Assembly: GCA_022822085.1 (NCBI GenBank) | Contig: JAJECK010000010.1 | Span: 1-32,759 of the forward strand | Source of the DNA: Candidatus Poribacteria bacterium | GTDB lineage: Bacteria > Poribacteria > WGA-4E > WGA-3G | Length of the DNA: 32,759 nt | Reading direction: 5' to 3' | Part shown: positions 15,003-24,265 of the stretch, in pieces | Layout of the letters: every line of letters begins with the position of its first letter | Position numbering within the stretch: position 1 is the stretch's first letter | Notes under the pieces: generated by a model | What the model was told of the DNA's origin: nothing | Seen by the model: the letters and a program-made list of their open reading frames with translations, nothing else | The model's database searches: none | Program-made: the position numbers and the translations under genes

Positions 15003-16934
15003 TCAAATCCAACTATACACAGCAGATCGCAATACCAGGCTCAATAACGGCCAGAAACATCCCATCAATGCCTCACCCAAAACCAACCCAATGAAAAACG
15101 GGATTGCCCGCCGATACGCTTTGATTCCACCATTCCGCAAGATAATCCATTTCGTTACCATTGCAATCAGCAGTGGGAACCAGATGATATCTGTAGTTCC
15201 AGGCGCAACACCGATAACATATCCAGCAGGATGCAAAGGACACCACATAAAGCGCGAGCGTAAAAACATGACACCTAAATTCGCAAGAAATGTGAACCCA
15301 AGTACTGTTGTTGCTAACCAATCCATCGGTTTCGGATTTACCAACCACGACGACAGGAAATTATATGTATCTGCACCGCCAGCATGAATCTGCTCTGAAC
15401 CTGCTGCAACTCCCTCTCTATATATCGTATACGGATAGAGTATCAGACTTGACAAGACACCGACAAGACTTGCTATAACTAACACCGTGAACATCGTTCG
15501 GTTACGCACTCCTGTCCGTTCTCCAAGTTTAAACGATTCCAACTGATCAGGCATCGGGTGCGTGCGGAATGACGCATAGCTTGCGCCACTAAGCCAATTC
15601 AACAAGGATAGCATTGTCAGATTACCTGCACGTAACCTACGTGTACCAAGCAGTGAAATCATCATATATTGCGGTGTCAGGTAACCGATTGCATGTATCG
15701 GTGGTCCAAGTTCCGCACGCATACGCGTGAGTCCGACAACAATCATCAAATAGATACCGATGAAAACAGAAAATGCCCATAATGACATTCCACCTCGTAC
15801 ACATAAGACGGCAAGCAGGAGAAGGGATAAACCGAGTGTAATGATTGTGCTGCGAGGAGATATCGCCTCCTTCCGTGAAGCATCACGATCTTGGCGGATT
15901 ACCTGTGAAAACACATAAGCAAAATGCTTCCTACCATGCCAACATGCAATAGCAAGCAGGGCAAGCAACGCACCGGCTCCCTGCTCTCCTAAAAACGGAT
16001 ACCCTGGAACTTTCGACACACCTGTTGCACTGCCGAATATAAGCTGCACCTTCTTCATCAAATAGAAAAATGCGCACGAAAATGCTAAATCCAATGGCAA
16101 GATAAATGAAAACCCTATCAGATACGGATGAAATCGAAGCGGAGTGTTACCAATGGCATCCCACGGTTTCTGTGTAAAATAAATATTCAGGTTATACTTT
16201 TTCACCGGTATCTCAGGTAGGACAGGATAAAAGTATTGGAGCCCATTGAGCAGATTTATCCCAAATGCTATACCGAACCCTATCCATAACAGACGGTTCC
16301 TAAAAATACGCCGATTGGTGGTTATCTCAAGCGGAATCTGGATAATTGGATAAGCGAGTTTTTCGTTCTCTATCCACTGCTTCCTAATTAAAGATGTCAG
16401 GCAGAGGAAAATCAGCATCAACAAAAAGATTACTGCAGACCACGCAAGTATTGGAACAATCCAATGTTGCACGTATCCTTCAGTGAAAAAGTTGACATTA
16501 CCCTCATAGAAATCGTTTACTGTCTTCGGATCTTTGACCACAAGCCATTCAGGAAGATGATGAAAAAGCAGTGCTTCCCAATCATTCTCAGCAGTAGCAA
16601 AGCGGAAAGCATAAGGAATCAGCCCCATAAGACGGGGCATACAATCGTGTCCAGAAAATGCACTCCCGACAGCGAGCATGCTATAGACAATTATCAAATC
16701 GCGTTGTGAAAGGGCAGCATTCGGTGCGATACTACGGACCCACATATTCAGCATCGTTATCACAAAGATACCGAACATCACATTTACAGACATCGCAACA
16801 GTTGTCAGATGAGCAGTATGCCAGATCATCTCAACATAAGCAATCCAATAACTGTTGCCGATAATCAGAACAGTACCAATCAAGACTGCCCGTTTAGCAA
16901 TAGGAGAGGTAGGTTGTATGTTAGTTTGACGCAT
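15003..16934 (-). CDS. Polytopic membrane protein, DUF6785/DUF6784-like
   Basis: The 643-residue protein has about 14 hydrophobic helices and long loops. It has a conserved-looking acidic/aromatic segment (GHDCMPRLMGLIPYAFRFAT) after the third helix. ENEKLAYPIIQIPLEI sits at the cytoplasmic end of a helix and resembles the oligopeptide-transporter (OPT) pattern. RMRAELGPPIHAIGYLTPQY is in the second half. I associate this pattern with the DUF6785 (N-terminal) and DUF6784 (C-terminal) membrane proteins of Planctomycetes, Poribacteria and relatives, which may be OPT-related transporters. The substrate is unknown. It is transcribed alone, divergently from the dnaN pair, with no strong ribosome-binding site before its ATG. 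Confidence 0.7.
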   Translation of the reverse strand: MRQTNIQPTSPIAKRAVLIGTVLIIGNSYWIAYVEMIWHTAHLTTVAMSVNVMFGIFVITMLNMWVRSIAPNAALSQRDLIIVYSMLAVGSAFSGHDCMPRLMGLIPYAFRFATAENDWEALLFHHLPEWLVVKDPKTVNDFYEGNVNFFTEGYVQHWIVPILAWSAVIFLLMLIFLCLTSLIRKQWIENEKLAYPIIQIPLEITTNRRIFRNRLLWIGFGIAFGINLLNGLQYFYPVLPEIPVKKYNLNIYFTQKPWDAIGNTPLRFHPYLIGFSFILPLDLAFSCAFFYLMKKVQLIFGSATGVSKVPGYPFLGEQGAGALLALLAIACWHGRKHFAYVFSQVIRQDRDASRKEAISPRSTIITLGLSLLLLAVLCVRGGMSLWAFSVFIGIYLMIVVGLTRMRAELGPPIHAIGYLTPQYMMISLLGTRRLRAGNLTMLSLLNWLSGASYASFRTHPMPDQLESFKLGERTGVRNRTMFTVLVIASLVGVLSSLILYPYTIYREGVAAGSEQIHAGGADTYNFLSSWLVNPKPMDWLATTVLGFTFLANLGVMFLRSRFMWCPLHPAGYVIGVAPGTTDIIWFPLLIAMVTKWIILRNGGIKAYRRAIPFFIGLVLGEALMGCFWPLLSLVLRSAVYSWI

Positions 16935-17251
16935 TCTTTTAGCGAGGTGAGAATTTAGGTCGATGTGTCGTAAAAATTGAGGCTAATATATCACATTTTT
17001 ATGGATATATTTTCTATACTATGTTATACTAAACAATCAGAAGTCTGTCAAGGTGAAAATAAGAATAAACCCATAGAAAACTGCTAATCTTATACGTTCA
17101 TAATGGGTTGATTTTCCCAATATGTTCTCACATTTTGTACACCTGACAATGGATTTCAACGATTTATATGACAATTCTGAGAAGAAATTTGGCACTTAAC
17201 AGAAAGACATTTTTAAATGACTAAATATAATTCAAATTGGGAGCGACAAAT
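16935..17251. other. Divergent intergenic region between membrane protein and first dnaN
   Basis: About 317 AT-rich bases hold the promoters of both divergent genes. I see two TATACT hexamers near 17023-17036 and a 7-base inverted repeat AACCCAT (17068-17074) / ATGGGTT (17103-17109), but no convincing complete promoter. No DnaA boxes (TTATCCACA type) are evident, so there is no sign of a replication origin despite the dnaN genes. Confidence 0.5.
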
Positions 17252-18373
17252 ATGCAACTAACTTTTCAAAAAGATGAACTCTTATATACACTTCAAATGG
17301 TACAGGGAATAGCAGGTGGACGGAATACCTTGCCAATTTTATCAAATGTCCTCATACGTGCACAAGATGGGAACATTGAATGTGCTGCGACCGATTTAGA
17401 AGTCGGAATAAGAATAAAAGTTATGGGTACCATCAAAGAGGAAGGGGCGATTACCGTTTCTGCCAAAAAGATAGCAGACATCGTTAGAGAATTGCCTGAC
17501 GAACCCATTGAACTCGTTACGACTGCAAATGACAGAGTTGAACTGACATGTGGCGAGGGTGTCTATAAAATTATCGGACTTTCCGATGAAGAGTTTCCTG
17601 ATCTCCCCGCTGCAGATGGATCAGGGATACCTATTGAAGGTGAAACATTATGTTCTGTTATCAACAAAACACAATTTGCTGCATCTCAGGAGGAAGTACG
17701 ATACACATTGAATGGATTGTATTTCAACCTTATGGACGACAAAACTGAAGTGGTTGCAACGGATGGTACAAGACAGCTTGCTTTAACCTATTGTCCTCCA
17801 CTTAAAAGTTCTGATGATGTAACAGGTCTAATCGTTCCATTAAAAACGATTAGAGAGGTTGCAAGAATTTTCGCTGAATCAGCCGAGATAAAGATTTCTC
17901 ACCAAAAAAATCAACTCCTTTTTGCAGATGAAAACACAACCTTAACAACACGTCTGGTAGAAGGTGAATATCCGCCATATCAGAAACTATTTCGTGATTC
18001 TTCCGATGGACGTACAGTGATCTCAAAAGAGGCGATATTGCGCGCAGCACGACGGGTCTCTTTGCTTTCAGACCCAAAGAATTTTTTAATCTGCTTAGAA
18101 ATCGACACAGAACAGATACGTATTTCAGCAAAGACACCCGAACTCGGGGAAGCACATGAGACCGTCTCTGTGGAATCAGGAACTGGAAGCGTCCGGATTG
18201 GCTTGGATGCGCGTGTACTATTAGATGTATTGGCGCATATTGAAACAGATTCGCTCATTTTTGAGTTCACTGGAGAGTTTATACCGTTGATCGTAAAACC
18301 AATCGGTGATAATGAACATACCTGCTATATCATGCCGATGCGTTTAGAACCCGCTTCGCCATTGGAATCTTAA
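17252..18373 (+). CDS. dnaN: DNA polymerase III beta subunit (sliding clamp), copy 1
   Basis: The ATG at 17252 has GGGAG 8 bases upstream and gives 373 residues starting MQLTFQKDELLYTLQ, as is normal for the beta clamp; an in-frame TTG at 17237 is less likely. The three clamp domains are present: the GRNTLPILSNVLI segment of domain 1, VRYTLNGLYFNL with VVATDG of domain 2, and the C-terminal CYIMPMRL that forms part of the partner-binding pocket. The clamp tethers polymerase III and repair proteins to DNA. The usual ATDGHRLA segment is ATDGTRQLA here, with one extra residue. A close paralogue follows 193 bases downstream. Neither dnaA nor recF, the usual neighbours, is nearby. Confidence 0.93.
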   Translation: MQLTFQKDELLYTLQMVQGIAGGRNTLPILSNVLIRAQDGNIECAATDLEVGIRIKVMGTIKEEGAITVSAKKIADIVRELPDEPIELVTTANDRVELTCGEGVYKIIGLSDEEFPDLPAADGSGIPIEGETLCSVINKTQFAASQEEVRYTLNGLYFNLMDDKTEVVATDGTRQLALTYCPPLKSSDDVTGLIVPLKTIREVARIFAESAEIKISHQKNQLLFADENTTLTTRLVEGEYPPYQKLFRDSSDGRTVISKEAILRAARRVSLLSDPKNFLICLEIDTEQIRISAKTPELGEAHETVSVESGTGSVRIGLDARVLLDVLAHIETDSLIFEFTGEFIPLIVKPIGDNEHTCYIMPMRLEPASPLES

Positions 18374-18447
18374 TTCTCTCAATAATTTTAATACGAATAA
18401 TTTGGGACTATAGTAGATTTTAGGATTTATTTTACTTTAGACAATTG

Positions 18448-18509
18448 TAGGAGCGAAATCTGATTCCCAGTTATCACTGAGTTAAACCGAGATTCGGAGA
18501 TCGCTCCTA
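18448..18509. repeat. REP-like palindrome (TAGGAGCG family)
   Basis: TAGGAGCG at 18448-18455 is mirrored by CGCTCCTA at 18502-18509, with further imperfect pairing inside the 62-base unit. It lies between the two dnaN genes. Related units occur at about 25566-25632 and 27237-27298. Confidence 0.65.
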
Positions 18510-18566
18510 TAGGTGAGATGTCTATTTATCAAAATACTTCACCATAAATATATAGGAGATTTCTTA

Positions 18567-19676
18567 ATGGAACTTTCCTTCGAAAAAGACGAACTCTTAG
18601 ATAACCTACAAACAGTGCAAGGTGTAGCAAGTGGTCGTAACACATTGCCAATTCTGTCAAACATACTCATTCGTGCACAAGATGAGGGGATTGTATGTGC
18701 TGCCACAGATTTAGAAGTTGGTATCAAGGTAAAAGTAGATGGCACTATAACGGAAACAGGTGAAATTACCGTTTCCGCCAAAAAATTAGTTGACCTCGTC
18801 CGAGAATTACCAGATCAACCAATTAAACTCGTTACGACTGCAAATGATAGAATTGAACTCACATGCGGAGAAGGCATTTATAAGATAATCGGTCTATCAA
18901 GTGAGGAATTTCCATCCGTTCCATCTGCTAATGGAGAAGGATTAACCATTGAAGGTGAAACGTTAAACGCAGTTATTCGTAAAACTGTATTCGCGGCATC
19001 TACAGAGGAAGTACAATTTCTTCTCAACGGTCTATATTTCAACCTACTTGAAGAAAGGACGGAGGTTGTTGCAACTGACAGAAACTATCTGGCAATAGCA
19101 CATTGCGATCCACTTCAAAAACCTGATGATGTGGAGGGATTTATACTTCCTTTGAAAGCGGTTAAAGAAATTCAACGCACCTTTGCAAATTCAGAAAAGG
19201 TGAGGATTTCTTTCCAAAATAACCAACTTCTTTTTTCAGATGAAAACGCTACATTGATGACACGATTAGTAGAAGGTCGATATCCCGAATATCAAACGAT
19301 TATCCCAGATTCCACCGAAGGACGGACTGTTGTGGCAACGGATTCTATTTTGCGTGCAGCACGGCGTGTTTCCTTACTTTCCAATCCGAAGAATTATGCG
19401 ATCTGTTTAGATATAGATACAGAACGGATTCACTTTTCCTCAAACACCCCAGAACTTGGTGAAGCACATGAAACGATTGCAGTGGAATCTGGCACTGGAA
19501 GTGTACGGATAGGTTTGGATGCTCGCATGTTAACAGATGTGTTGTCGCATATTGAAACCACATCTCTTATATTAGAATTCTCAGATGAAGCATCACCCTT
19601 CTTGGTCAAACCAGAAGGTGATGATGGCCATCTCTGCATCATTTCTCCGATGCGATTAGATGCCATTCACCAATAA
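18567..19676 (+). CDS. dnaN: DNA polymerase III beta subunit (sliding clamp), tandem copy 2
   Basis: The ATG at 18567 follows TAGGAG and gives 369 residues; the frame is open upstream, but the added 18 residues have no counterpart in copy 1. By eye 45 of the first 60 residues are identical to copy 1, so this is a tandem duplication. Clamp features are GRNTLPILSNILI, VQFLLNGLYFNL and PMRL at the end. The partner-binding pocket differs from the standard clamp: ATDGHRLA is ATDRNYLA, and the terminal M-P-M is S-P-M. The copy may have changed its binding partners or may form mixed clamps with copy 1. A short REP-like palindrome separates the two, and copy 2 has its own ribosome-binding site. Confidence 0.92.
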   Translation: MELSFEKDELLDNLQTVQGVASGRNTLPILSNILIRAQDEGIVCAATDLEVGIKVKVDGTITETGEITVSAKKLVDLVRELPDQPIKLVTTANDRIELTCGEGIYKIIGLSSEEFPSVPSANGEGLTIEGETLNAVIRKTVFAASTEEVQFLLNGLYFNLLEERTEVVATDRNYLAIAHCDPLQKPDDVEGFILPLKAVKEIQRTFANSEKVRISFQNNQLLFSDENATLMTRLVEGRYPEYQTIIPDSTEGRTVVATDSILRAARRVSLLSNPKNYAICLDIDTERIHFSSNTPELGEAHETIAVESGTGSVRIGLDARMLTDVLSHIETTSLILEFSDEASPFLVKPEGDDGHLCIISPMRLDAIHQ

Positions 19677-20300: not shown

Positions 20301-23051
20301 TTAGTCATATTTATGGTCTATCTCCCAGAGAAGCACAGTGCCATCATCACTACCACTAATGAGGGTTTTTCCATCTGGACTGAAGGCAACATTGTTAACC
20401 CAACCTGTATGCCCAGTCAGTGTTTTCTTGTGTTTACCGGTGTGTGCATCCCAGAGGCGAATGTCGTTGTCCCTGCTGCCACTTGCGAGGGTTTTACCAT
20501 CTGGACTGAAAGCCAAACTGGAAACCACGTGTCTGTGTCCAGCAAGTGTCATTTTACTTTTACCTGTGTCTATATCCCATAAGTGGATGACGGACCTACC
20601 ACTGCCACTTGCAAGGGTTTTACCATCCGGACTGAAGGAAATACTTTCAACACTCTCACGTCCTATGGGCTCCCCAACATTTGCGTTGAAAGTCATTTTG
20701 GTCGCGCCAGTATCAACATCCCATAGTAATATCGTATGATCCTCGTTGCCGCTGGCGAGGGTTTTACCGTCAGGACTAAAGGTTACGCTATAGACTTTTT
20801 GTTTGTGTTCCTTGAGCGTTTTCTTAAGTTCACCAGTAGGCATGTCCCATAGACGGATAGTTTTGTCCTCACTACCGCCCGCGAGTGTATTTCCATCTGG
20901 ACTAAGTGCAATACTATGGATACTCGACATATGTTCAAAATGTATTATTTTGTGTTCATCAGTGTGTACGTTCCACAGATAGATGTTTTCACCAATTTCA
21001 CAAACAAGTTTTTTTCCATCCGAAGTGAACGTCAAACTATCTACATAATCTTTTGACTCTTTGAATGTTTTTATGTGTTTTCTGGTGTCTACATTCCATA
21101 ACCGAATGTAACCATCACTATATCCACATGCGATTGTCTGTCCATCGGGGCTAAATGCGACACTCTCAGCATAATCCGTATGTCCAATAAATTCAATTTG
21201 TTGGTTGTCTGTGGACGCATCCCATAAACGGATAGTGCCATCACCACTTCCACTTGCGATTGTCTGTCCATCTGGACTAAATGCTAAACCCAGAATATCT
21301 CCTGTATGTCCAGTGAGCGTTCGCTTGTGTTCACCAATGTTTGCATCCCATAGTCGGATTGTTTCATCTACATAAGATGCGCTTGCGAGGGTTTTTCCAT
21401 CTGGACTGAAAATTAAACAGTTCACATCCCCCGAATGTCCGCTGAGTTTAAACATGAGTTCACTCGTGTTTAAGTCGATGATGTAAATATTACCATCTAT
21501 ATCACCGCTACCCACTGCGATTGTCTTTCCGTCAGGACTAAGGGCTATTCCCCATATAGAAGCTGTATGATCTACATCTACAATTGTCTTTTTAAGTTTA
21601 CCTGTGCTCGTATTCCACAAACTAATTAGTCCACCCCAATTAACACAAACAATTGTTTCACCATCCGGTGTAAAATATAAGAAGTTATTGGTCTCAATCG
21701 TAAGGTTGGTAAGCGTAGATATTAGTTCTCCTGTGGTTGCATCCCATAATCGAATAGTATCGTTATTTCCGCTTGCCAAGGTTTTTCCATCCGGACTGAA
21801 TGCAATGTTCAAGTCTGATCTTAAATCTCTGTGCGCGTTAAGCGTTGTCTGCGTCCCTGAGCTTCTATCCCATAACAGTATAGTGCTATTATCTTTACTT
21901 ACACTTGCAAAAAAGCGTCCATCTGAACTGAATGCAATTCTGGAGACTGCACTCGTATGTTCTGTAAGTAAGGCGATCTCTTGATGTGTTTTTGTATCGT
22001 AGAACCAAATACCAATATTACTCGCCACTGCAAGTATTGTTCCATCTGGAGAATACTGTATCTGATTTATCCTACCTTTACCGAGACGTGCTTTGGCATC
22101 CTCTGGCAGGTTCCATTGCGTTGTGTCTTGTGCTAAGTTGTTTTCCACAGTTTTTGTTCCTTTTGTTAGACCGTTGTTACTATTTTCGCTTTGATTCGTA
22201 CCACCAACTCGGTTTTGTAATTCTGGTTTTGATTGGATATCAAGAACAACTGGCGCGTCAACGATTTCAATAACGTGTTCTGATGTCGCATCAAGACTAT
22301 ATGGCTTCTGAAAATTAGCGGTGAATTGCTTGCTTGCACCCATCAACAAAATAACCAAAATAACAGATGCACCTAAAGCTGCAAATGGTAGCAACGGTTT
22401 GCCTCCTGATGGAGACGTTTGTTCCATTGTGTCGATGCGCCGCATAATGCTTTCGGTTAAATCTGGTCGTAACGAGACACTTCCGAGTGTTTCCCGAATT
22501 ATGTGTTCTTCGTTCTGTAAACGTTCTCGTGCACGTTTAAGCCGACTTTTAACCGTGTTCGGAGATACACCTAAAAACCTGCTAATTTCTGCACAGTTCA
22601 TTTCTCCGAGATAGTAAAGGACCATTACTGTGCGTTCACTCTCTGGGAGTTTTTCCATGAGTTTTTGCACGATTTTACGTCGGTGTTCAACGGCTGCATC
22701 CTCGCGCTGTTCACATGCATAGTCCGCATAAGCGGCTTTTTCAAGTGTTTCTACACTCGTGGCTTCAAGCGATTGTGTCCGTAGTTTTTTCTTCCGAAAC
22801 CATGCTTTGCAACGCCGATCTGCAATTACGTAGAGCCATCCGGCAAACTGACTCGGATTTTTCAGTGTGCTAAGTTTGTTGTGTGCTTGCAGAAAAGTGT
22901 CCTGTGTGATTTCTTCGGCGATATGGAAATCACCGATTTTCCGCCATGCAAGTGCGTGAACACTCTTTTGGTATTTCTTAATTAAATCGCTGAAAGCAGC
23001 TTCATCACCTGATAGTGTTCTGTGGATCAGTTTAACGTCATCTTTTTCCAT
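20301..23051 (-). CDS. ECF sigma-70 factor fused through a membrane helix to 14 WD40 repeats
   Basis: The 916-residue protein has GGAGGTTT before its ATG. Residues 1-180 are a complete ECF sigma factor: region 2 has DEAAFSDLIKKYQKSVHALA and AEEITQDTFLQAHNKL, and region 4 has MNCAEISRFLGVSPNTVKSR then LKRARERL. A short linker and one hydrophobic helix (about 219-239) follow. A polar stretch of about 85 residues comes next, then from about 326 to the end 14 WD40 repeats of about 42 residues, most with FSPDGKTLASGS and IRLWD. Fourteen repeats suit two seven-bladed propellers. If the helix is inserted, the sigma part faces the cytoplasm and the propellers face the periplasm, suggesting a one-protein sensor-regulator. 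No separate anti-sigma gene is next to it. Sigma-WD40 fusions are, as I recall, known from Planctomycetes-like genomes. Confidence 0.92.
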   Translation of the reverse strand: MEKDDVKLIHRTLSGDEAAFSDLIKKYQKSVHALAWRKIGDFHIAEEITQDTFLQAHNKLSTLKNPSQFAGWLYVIADRRCKAWFRKKKLRTQSLEATSVETLEKAAYADYACEQREDAAVEHRRKIVQKLMEKLPESERTVMVLYYLGEMNCAEISRFLGVSPNTVKSRLKRARERLQNEEHIIRETLGSVSLRPDLTESIMRRIDTMEQTSPSGGKPLLPFAALGASVILVILLMGASKQFTANFQKPYSLDATSEHVIEIVDAPVVLDIQSKPELQNRVGGTNQSENSNNGLTKGTKTVENNLAQDTTQWNLPEDAKARLGKGRINQIQYSPDGTILAVASNIGIWFYDTKTHQEIALLTEHTSAVSRIAFSSDGRFFASVSKDNSTILLWDRSSGTQTTLNAHRDLRSDLNIAFSPDGKTLASGNNDTIRLWDATTGELISTLTNLTIETNNFLYFTPDGETIVCVNWGGLISLWNTSTGKLKKTIVDVDHTASIWGIALSPDGKTIAVGSGDIDGNIYIIDLNTSELMFKLSGHSGDVNCLIFSPDGKTLASASYVDETIRLWDANIGEHKRTLTGHTGDILGLAFSPDGQTIASGSGDGTIRLWDASTDNQQIEFIGHTDYAESVAFSPDGQTIACGYSDGYIRLWNVDTRKHIKTFKESKDYVDSLTFTSDGKKLVCEIGENIYLWNVHTDEHKIIHFEHMSSIHSIALSPDGNTLAGGSEDKTIRLWDMPTGELKKTLKEHKQKVYSVTFSPDGKTLASGNEDHTILLWDVDTGATKMTFNANVGEPIGRESVESISFSPDGKTLASGSGRSVIHLWDIDTGKSKMTLAGHRHVVSSLAFSPDGKTLASGSRDNDIRLWDAHTGKHKKTLTGHTGWVNNVAFSPDGKTLISGSDDGTVLLWEIDHKYD

Positions 23052-23347: not shown

Positions 23348-24265
23348 CTAACTCACCTCTGTGCCAGACATCTGCTCTAACGCTAACACCAACGCTTGCG
23401 TGCCTAAACGTCCATGTCCTTGCGCTTGTACAGCAGTATAAAGTTGATGTACCAAGGCAAGTCCGGGTAAGCTCAGATTCATTTTTCTTGCTTCATCCAG
23501 GGCAATGCTCATATCCTTGATGAAGTGTTCCACAAAGAAACCTGGGTCAAAATCACGCTTGAGAACACGCGGTGCTAAATTATCCAGCGACCAACATGCA
23601 GCGGCACCACCACTGATGGAAGATAGCATCGTCTCTAGATCCAAACCGGCTTTATGACCATAGATCAATCCTTCACACACACCGATCATCGTACCAGAAA
23701 TAGTGATCTGATTGCACATCTTAGTGTGTTGCCCCGCGCCGGCACCCCCTTGATGGACGATGTTTTTTCCCATTGCAGAGAATAGCGGCATAATTGCTTC
23801 TACTGCCGCGTCATCCCCACCTACCATAATAGAGAGTCGTGCCTCCCGCGCACCCACATCCCCACCTGAGACGGGGGCATCCACAGAAGATACATTTTGT
23901 TCACTTGCCGCAGCGTATATCTCCTGTGCAAGAGAGGGTTCAGTTGTCGTCATATCCACGATAATACTACCAGGCTTTGCGCCTTTCAGTGTACCATTAT
24001 CACCAAGGTATACCTCACGCACATCGGGTGGAAACCCAACGATAGTAAAGATGACATTGGAAGCAGCAGCAACTTCACTTGGTGAATCTGCCCATGTTGC
24101 ACCATCATCAATGAGCGGTTGTGCTTTTGATTTAGTCCGGTTATAAACCGTCATTTCATATCCAAGATCCATCAGATGTTGACACATCCAACGTCCCATC
24201 ACGCCAGTTCCTATCCAACCTAATTTCGTTTTTGTAGGTTCTACACTCATTACTTTATCTGCCAT
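23348..24265 (-). CDS. NAD(P)-dependent beta-hydroxyacid dehydrogenase (3-hydroxyisobutyrate / tartronate semialdehyde reductase type)
   Basis: The 305-residue protein starts at an ATG preceded by GGAAGGAG. The nucleotide-binding motif [12 protein letters not shown] is at 16-27. The family signature [20 protein letters not shown] is at 128-147, and the catalytic Lys182 sits in [18 protein letters not shown] after the second strand suggests NADP preference, because Arg43 could contact the phosphate. Enzymes of this family (MmsB, GarR, GlxR, succinic semialdehyde reductases) oxidise or reduce beta-hydroxy acids; the substrate cannot be told apart from motifs. It may supply a sugar-acid or valine-breakdown step. 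A perfect 11-base inverted repeat lies upstream at 24314-24349. Confidence 0.88.

Follow-up and report, generated by a model that had tools for sequence, protein, structure and literature searches.

In the Candidatus Poribacteria family studied here, the beta-clamp gene dnaN moved away from the dnaA-recF locus at the base of the family and, in the genus of the genome under study (g1), was duplicated in place. The two resulting copies are probably specialised, as judged from their residues, and the reading that we favour, with somewhat better than even confidence, is that in this genus one copy of the relocated gene encodes a conventional replicative clamp (copy 1) and the other a clamp for other partners (copy 2). 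The pair lies in what we call the window, that is, the whole stretch of 32,759 nucleotides that was analysed. Both genes are on the plus strand and start with ATG: dnaN1 (copy 1; 17252..18373, 373 aa) follows a GGGAG ribosome-binding site (17239..17243) located 8 nt 5' of its ATG at 17252, and dnaN2 (copy 2; 18567..19676, 369 aa), beyond a gap of 193 nt, follows an AGGAGA site (18554..18559) located 7 nt 5' of its ATG at 18567. In each, the three Pfam clamp domains (PF00712, PF02767 and PF02768) are matched end to end, and both score well above the 138-bit cut-off of TIGR00663, the NCBIfam DnaN equivalog (274 bits for dnaN1 and 269 for dnaN2). An earlier sequence-only reading of this DNA had described tandem full-length clamp paralogues with separate ribosome-binding sites, and this description holds, as both frames are intact with three domains each; its by-eye count of 45 identical residues among the first 60 was matched exactly on recount, within an overall identity of 249/369 (67%). 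The clamp fold of dnaN2 is predicted by an AlphaFold model (pLDDT 86.6) to which PDB clamps match at TM 0.86–0.93, while that of dnaN1 is assigned by sequence. Both copies are thus like the DnaN clamp described by TIGR00663 in length, in having three domains over approximately 366 residues, in their ring residues and in fold, but differ from it in occurring as two tandem copies, in not lying beside dnaA and in the altered pocket of copy 2. Because no convincing terminator was found in the 193-nt gap, co-transcription of the two genes is possible. The gap also holds a dispersed 62-nt palindromic repeat of no assigned strand (18448..18509), REP- or MITE-like, with 25-nt arms and 22 matching places in the genome.

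The usual, although not defining, place of dnaN is between dnaA and recF. The absence of replication-initiation genes nearby, as reported before, is upheld: none is found in the window, and the single dnaA of the genome (G000, a metagenome-assembled genome, 96.5% complete) lies on another contig, directly followed by a gene that we take, from its sequence, to be RecF-like, with no dnaN between them. The same order without an intervening dnaN was seen in 11/11 family members checked, which span four genera, and dnaN adjoins dnaA in four outgroup genomes (G058, G060, G063 and G066). A second, weaker DnaA-domain match (frames of 386–439 aa) is present in these same outgroups and absent from all eleven family members searched. 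In a relative assembled as a single contig (G010), and on the assumption that this contig is circular, dnaA and the tandem pair lie about 1.8 Mb apart the shorter way round.

Synteny places the family locus of dnaN between a DUF6785 gene and a group of HIBADH, flippase and nadC genes. In the window, the upstream neighbour, conserved in all four family genera, encodes a DUF6785/DUF6784 membrane protein (15003..16934, minus strand; Pfam and synteny), and the downstream neighbour conserved in the family is a HIBADH-like gene (23348..24265, minus strand), whose product we presume from its sequence to be 3-hydroxyisobutyrate dehydrogenase-like. Between dnaN2 and these conserved downstream genes, both in the window and in G010, sits a gene for an ECF sigma-like domain fused to a WD40 propeller (20301..23051, minus strand), a member of a large set of ECF paralogues. 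By synteny, the genus g1 carries two or three dnaN genes at this locus, and a single one is found there in the sister genera g2 (copy B), g3 and g4, as seen in G020, in G019 (where the DUF6785 side only was seen) and at the g2 B locus. Since the sister genera hold a single gene where g1 holds a tandem, the duplication is local and genus-specific, and the relocation is older. The sequence-only reading was correct in placing the locus away from dnaA and in regarding the duplication as real; what it missed is that a dnaN already relocated was duplicated in place.

Two checks envisaged earlier, a whole-genome count of dnaN and a tree, were carried out. The count returned two intact clamps, dnaN1 and dnaN2, and a third that has a frameshift and is joined to a sigma-factor domain, so that the earlier account of two clamps stands for the window and lacked the third, ECF sigma-fused one, which lies outside it. 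In a tree of 61 sequences, copy 1 and copy 2 each cluster with their counterparts from G010, G002, G015 and G011, and form separate orthologous clades across five species; the duplication is old. The deep nodes uniting the first copies and uniting the last copies are weakly supported, and trees in which these groups were forced to hold together were neither rejected nor favoured (AU p of 0.09 and 0.08). An assembly artefact can be rejected: a third of the residues differ between the copies, and orthologues of both are present in separate assemblies, one of which is a single-contig chromosome.

The suggestion that the clamps might be specialised gained support from the partner-binding pocket. 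Departures were scored at positions where thirteen reference clamps (from the outgroups, g3 and g4, plus copy B of g2) have a conserved residue, with the pocket positions, and the E. coli clamp sequence used for numbering, taken from established knowledge. In copy 2 they cluster in the pocket (7/18 pocket positions vs 9/148 other conserved positions; Fisher p=0.00034), whereas in copy 1 they do not (2/18 vs 14/148; p=0.69), and ten last-type copies from other g1 species behave as copy 2 does (7/18 vs 10/148; p=0.00054), with the caveat that these p-values are indicative only and overstate independence because the sequences are related. Copy 2 is non-canonical at R152, G174 and M362, among other positions; copy 1 retains the key methionine, M362 of E. 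coli, where the last copies have S, A or G. The pocket of copy 1, near-canonical overall, is also non-ancestral in part, with a one-residue insertion in a pocket loop and other small changes, and in G017 both of the copies found lack M362, so that a canonical copy is not visible everywhere. On the other hand, R24, which we take to be a DNA-facing arginine, and most of eight positions presumed from established knowledge to make dimer contacts are retained in both copies. A ring that keeps these residues and has lost canonical pocket residues could also be an antagonist or decoy, loaded without recruiting polymerase and slowing replication under symbiotic growth. The replacements in copy 2, however, are particular residues that stay the same within a clade (S in one, A in another), a pattern that hints at a new ligand more than at simple loss, and we regard a decoy as very improbable.

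Purifying selection on both copies is strong. When G000 is compared with G010, copy 1 has a dN/dS of 0.046 and copy 2 one of 0.060, and over all pairs the values range from 0.046 to 0.115 and from 0.060 to 0.089, respectively. Decay of one copy, which the earlier reading had listed among the findings that would count against it, is rejected by these values. At synonymous sites the copies have diverged almost to saturation, and recent gene conversion between them was also rejected, as no near-identical stretch exists in the window genome, where identity is 60–78% throughout. As to expression, a paper on a sponge metaproteome names no more than six proteins of Poribacteria, which it describes as oxidoreductases. 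The similar strength of selection on the two copies, together with the fold, R24 and dimer positions that they have in common, is what would be expected if they were redundant and kept for dosage, with pocket differences that are drift tolerated by the partners. We consider this unlikely, because the changes in copy 2 are about 6-fold concentrated in the partner pocket and are shared as fixed differences by five species, which is not so in copy 1, and because near-saturated synonymous divergence represents a long time for pure redundancy.

Archaea have PCNA1/2/3, and some bacteria carry extra dnaN genes; the Poribacteria resemble both in having several clamp paralogues per cell. By analogy with the archaeal PCNA heterotrimers, which have three subunits, copy 1 and copy 2 could assemble, always or by preference, into a heterodimeric ring in which one pocket is normal and the other altered. 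The tandem, same-strand layout with a short gap, retained across the genus, and the conservation of dimer-contact positions in both copies are consistent with such a ring, but the interface positions examined display no complementary asymmetry, and the sister genera manage with a single copy at this locus, so that we find this explanation quite improbable. The reading that we prefer, and the simplest mechanism, is a division of labour between a replicative clamp and a clamp for other partners. Synteny shows that dnaN left the dnaA-recF locus for a place with the DUF6785 gene on one side and the HIBADH-like gene on the other, and was next duplicated there in the window's genus. Copy 1, with most of the usual pocket kept, would most likely be the replicative processivity clamp. 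Copy 2, which keeps the clamp fold, the DNA-facing arginine and the dimer-contact residues but has a remodelled partner pocket, would most likely be a ring binding another subset of partners, for example repair, mismatch-repair or translesion factors, and the two may possibly join in a mixed ring. Accounts of bacterial replication normally have a single all-purpose clamp, and a genus in which a conventional clamp stands beside one with an altered pocket offers a natural experiment on how a hub protein divides its partners.

The same lineage keeps yielding further clamp paralogues, including ECF sigma-clamp fusions that would probably tether a sigma factor to a DNA ring, a function suggested by their architecture. 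The third clamp of the window genome, on contig C81 (G000:C81:26632-28372; L004:8133-9873), has an ECF sigma domain upstream in the same frame and is frameshifted inside the clamp by an 8-base unit present in three tandem copies. In relatives the fusion is intact: a single frame of about 580 aa encodes sigma regions 2 and 4 (PF04542 and PF08281) and, after them, the complete clamp with its three domains. An extra domain behind regions 2 and 4 is the layout of an ECF sigma factor with a C-terminal extension. Full-length fusions of the main type were found in 29 genomes (3 of g1 and 26 of g2) and a second type in 6 further g2 genomes, which gives 35/59 family genomes for both types together; none was found in 24 genomes from other families of the class. 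Shorter ECF::clamp frames of about 461–466 aa, with the end of the clamp missing, occur in G044:C1:5385314, G050:C28, G021:C44 and G026:C299. Purifying selection on the fused clamp is weaker than on the free clamps but clear (dN/dS of about 0.2–0.3), and dN/dS of the sigma part is mostly 0.06–0.19. Among 30 distinct fusion sequences, a Shine-Dalgarno-like motif precedes the first clamp methionine in 30/30, compared to 17/270 other in-frame methionines, and persists though the encoded residues vary; this motif could be either left over from a time when the clamp had its own gene or part of an internal start from which free clamp is made as well. Because N-terminally fused clamps exist among solved structures (6p81 is a clamp with an N-terminal protein fusion), the sigma-clamp arrangement is sterically plausible. 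At least two ECF types are fused to clamps, and a single origin of all such fusions is disfavoured (AU p=0.0116). We also rejected a phage or plasmid origin: no phage record covers 80% of the fusion, the sole plasmid match at 80% coverage consists of two separate genes, and a scan of IMG/VR for the fusion gave no match.

In the late transcription of phage T4, the sigma factor gp55 acts with the co-activator gp33 and the clamp gp45, which tethers RNA polymerase to DNA (PMC7892883, PMC2988020, PMC9690074); there a short clamp-binding peptide motif links sigma factor and clamp (PMC7892883), and the clamp, a trimer, is a protein of its own. In the Poribacteria fusion, too, a protein of the sigma family is physically joined to a DNA sliding clamp, but here a chromosomal ECF sigma domain is covalently fused to a DnaN-type clamp. 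The analogy suggests that the sigma-clamp protein may be a cellular counterpart of clamp-activated transcription in T4. If these fusions work as their domains suggest, they would be the first chromosomal analogue of that system known to us, and would allow a direct test of coupling between gene expression and replication. The ECF core with a fused C-terminal domain is also seen in ECF57 proteins with WD40 repeats (PMC8999054), and the Poribacteria genomes themselves hold many ECF-WD40 proteins; in contrast to ECF57, what is appended here is a replication clamp, FtsZ, or FtsZ together with DnaE. In that ECF review (PMC8999054), a word search found neither clamp nor FtsZ, and the open literature that was searched, with the main ECF classification paper outside it, held no report of sigma-clamp or clamp-FtsZ fusions, and nothing relevant on bacteria with multiple dnaN genes. 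The stronger novelty is the fusion family, not the tandem pair.

Other fusions of this kind were seen. In G000, G010 and G020, the second FtsZ forms one protein with an ECF domain (loci L178 and L179 in g1; L192 in g4), and ECF sigma::FtsZ::DnaE occurs as a single frame in G044 and G037, the triple fusions being 1434 aa (L180:2778-7079) and 1366 aa (L181:2967-7064) long; DnaE frames of similar length are present in G001, G003, G015 and G035. A beta clamp::FtsZ fusion is found in genus g3 (L108:3929-6010 in G019; L193 in G022). Ordinary ftsZ and dnaE genes exist besides the fused copies. The ECF paralogues number tens per genome, and most of the others seen carry WD40 or other extensions. The repeated fusions indicate that clamps, FtsZ and DnaE are recurrent, and perhaps sensory, partners of the ECF family. 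A wider scheme, which we offer tentatively and as a possibility more than an expectation, is that an ECF sigma-clamp with an internal start would form a mixed ring carrying sigma along DNA and tying its regulon to replication, that the FtsZ and DnaE fusions would do likewise for the state of division and of the polymerase, and that the tandem dnaN genes would be the unfused part of this diversification of clamps.

Two further features of the window lie far from the clamp genes. At about 25–150, near the start of the contig, there is a long imperfect inverted repeat (CGGGTAGTGGCACGAAACCCGACA ... TGTCGGGTTTCGTGCCTCTACCCGACC), and at 922–1829 a DUF433 and a DUF5615 gene overlap and resemble a toxin-antitoxin-like pair.
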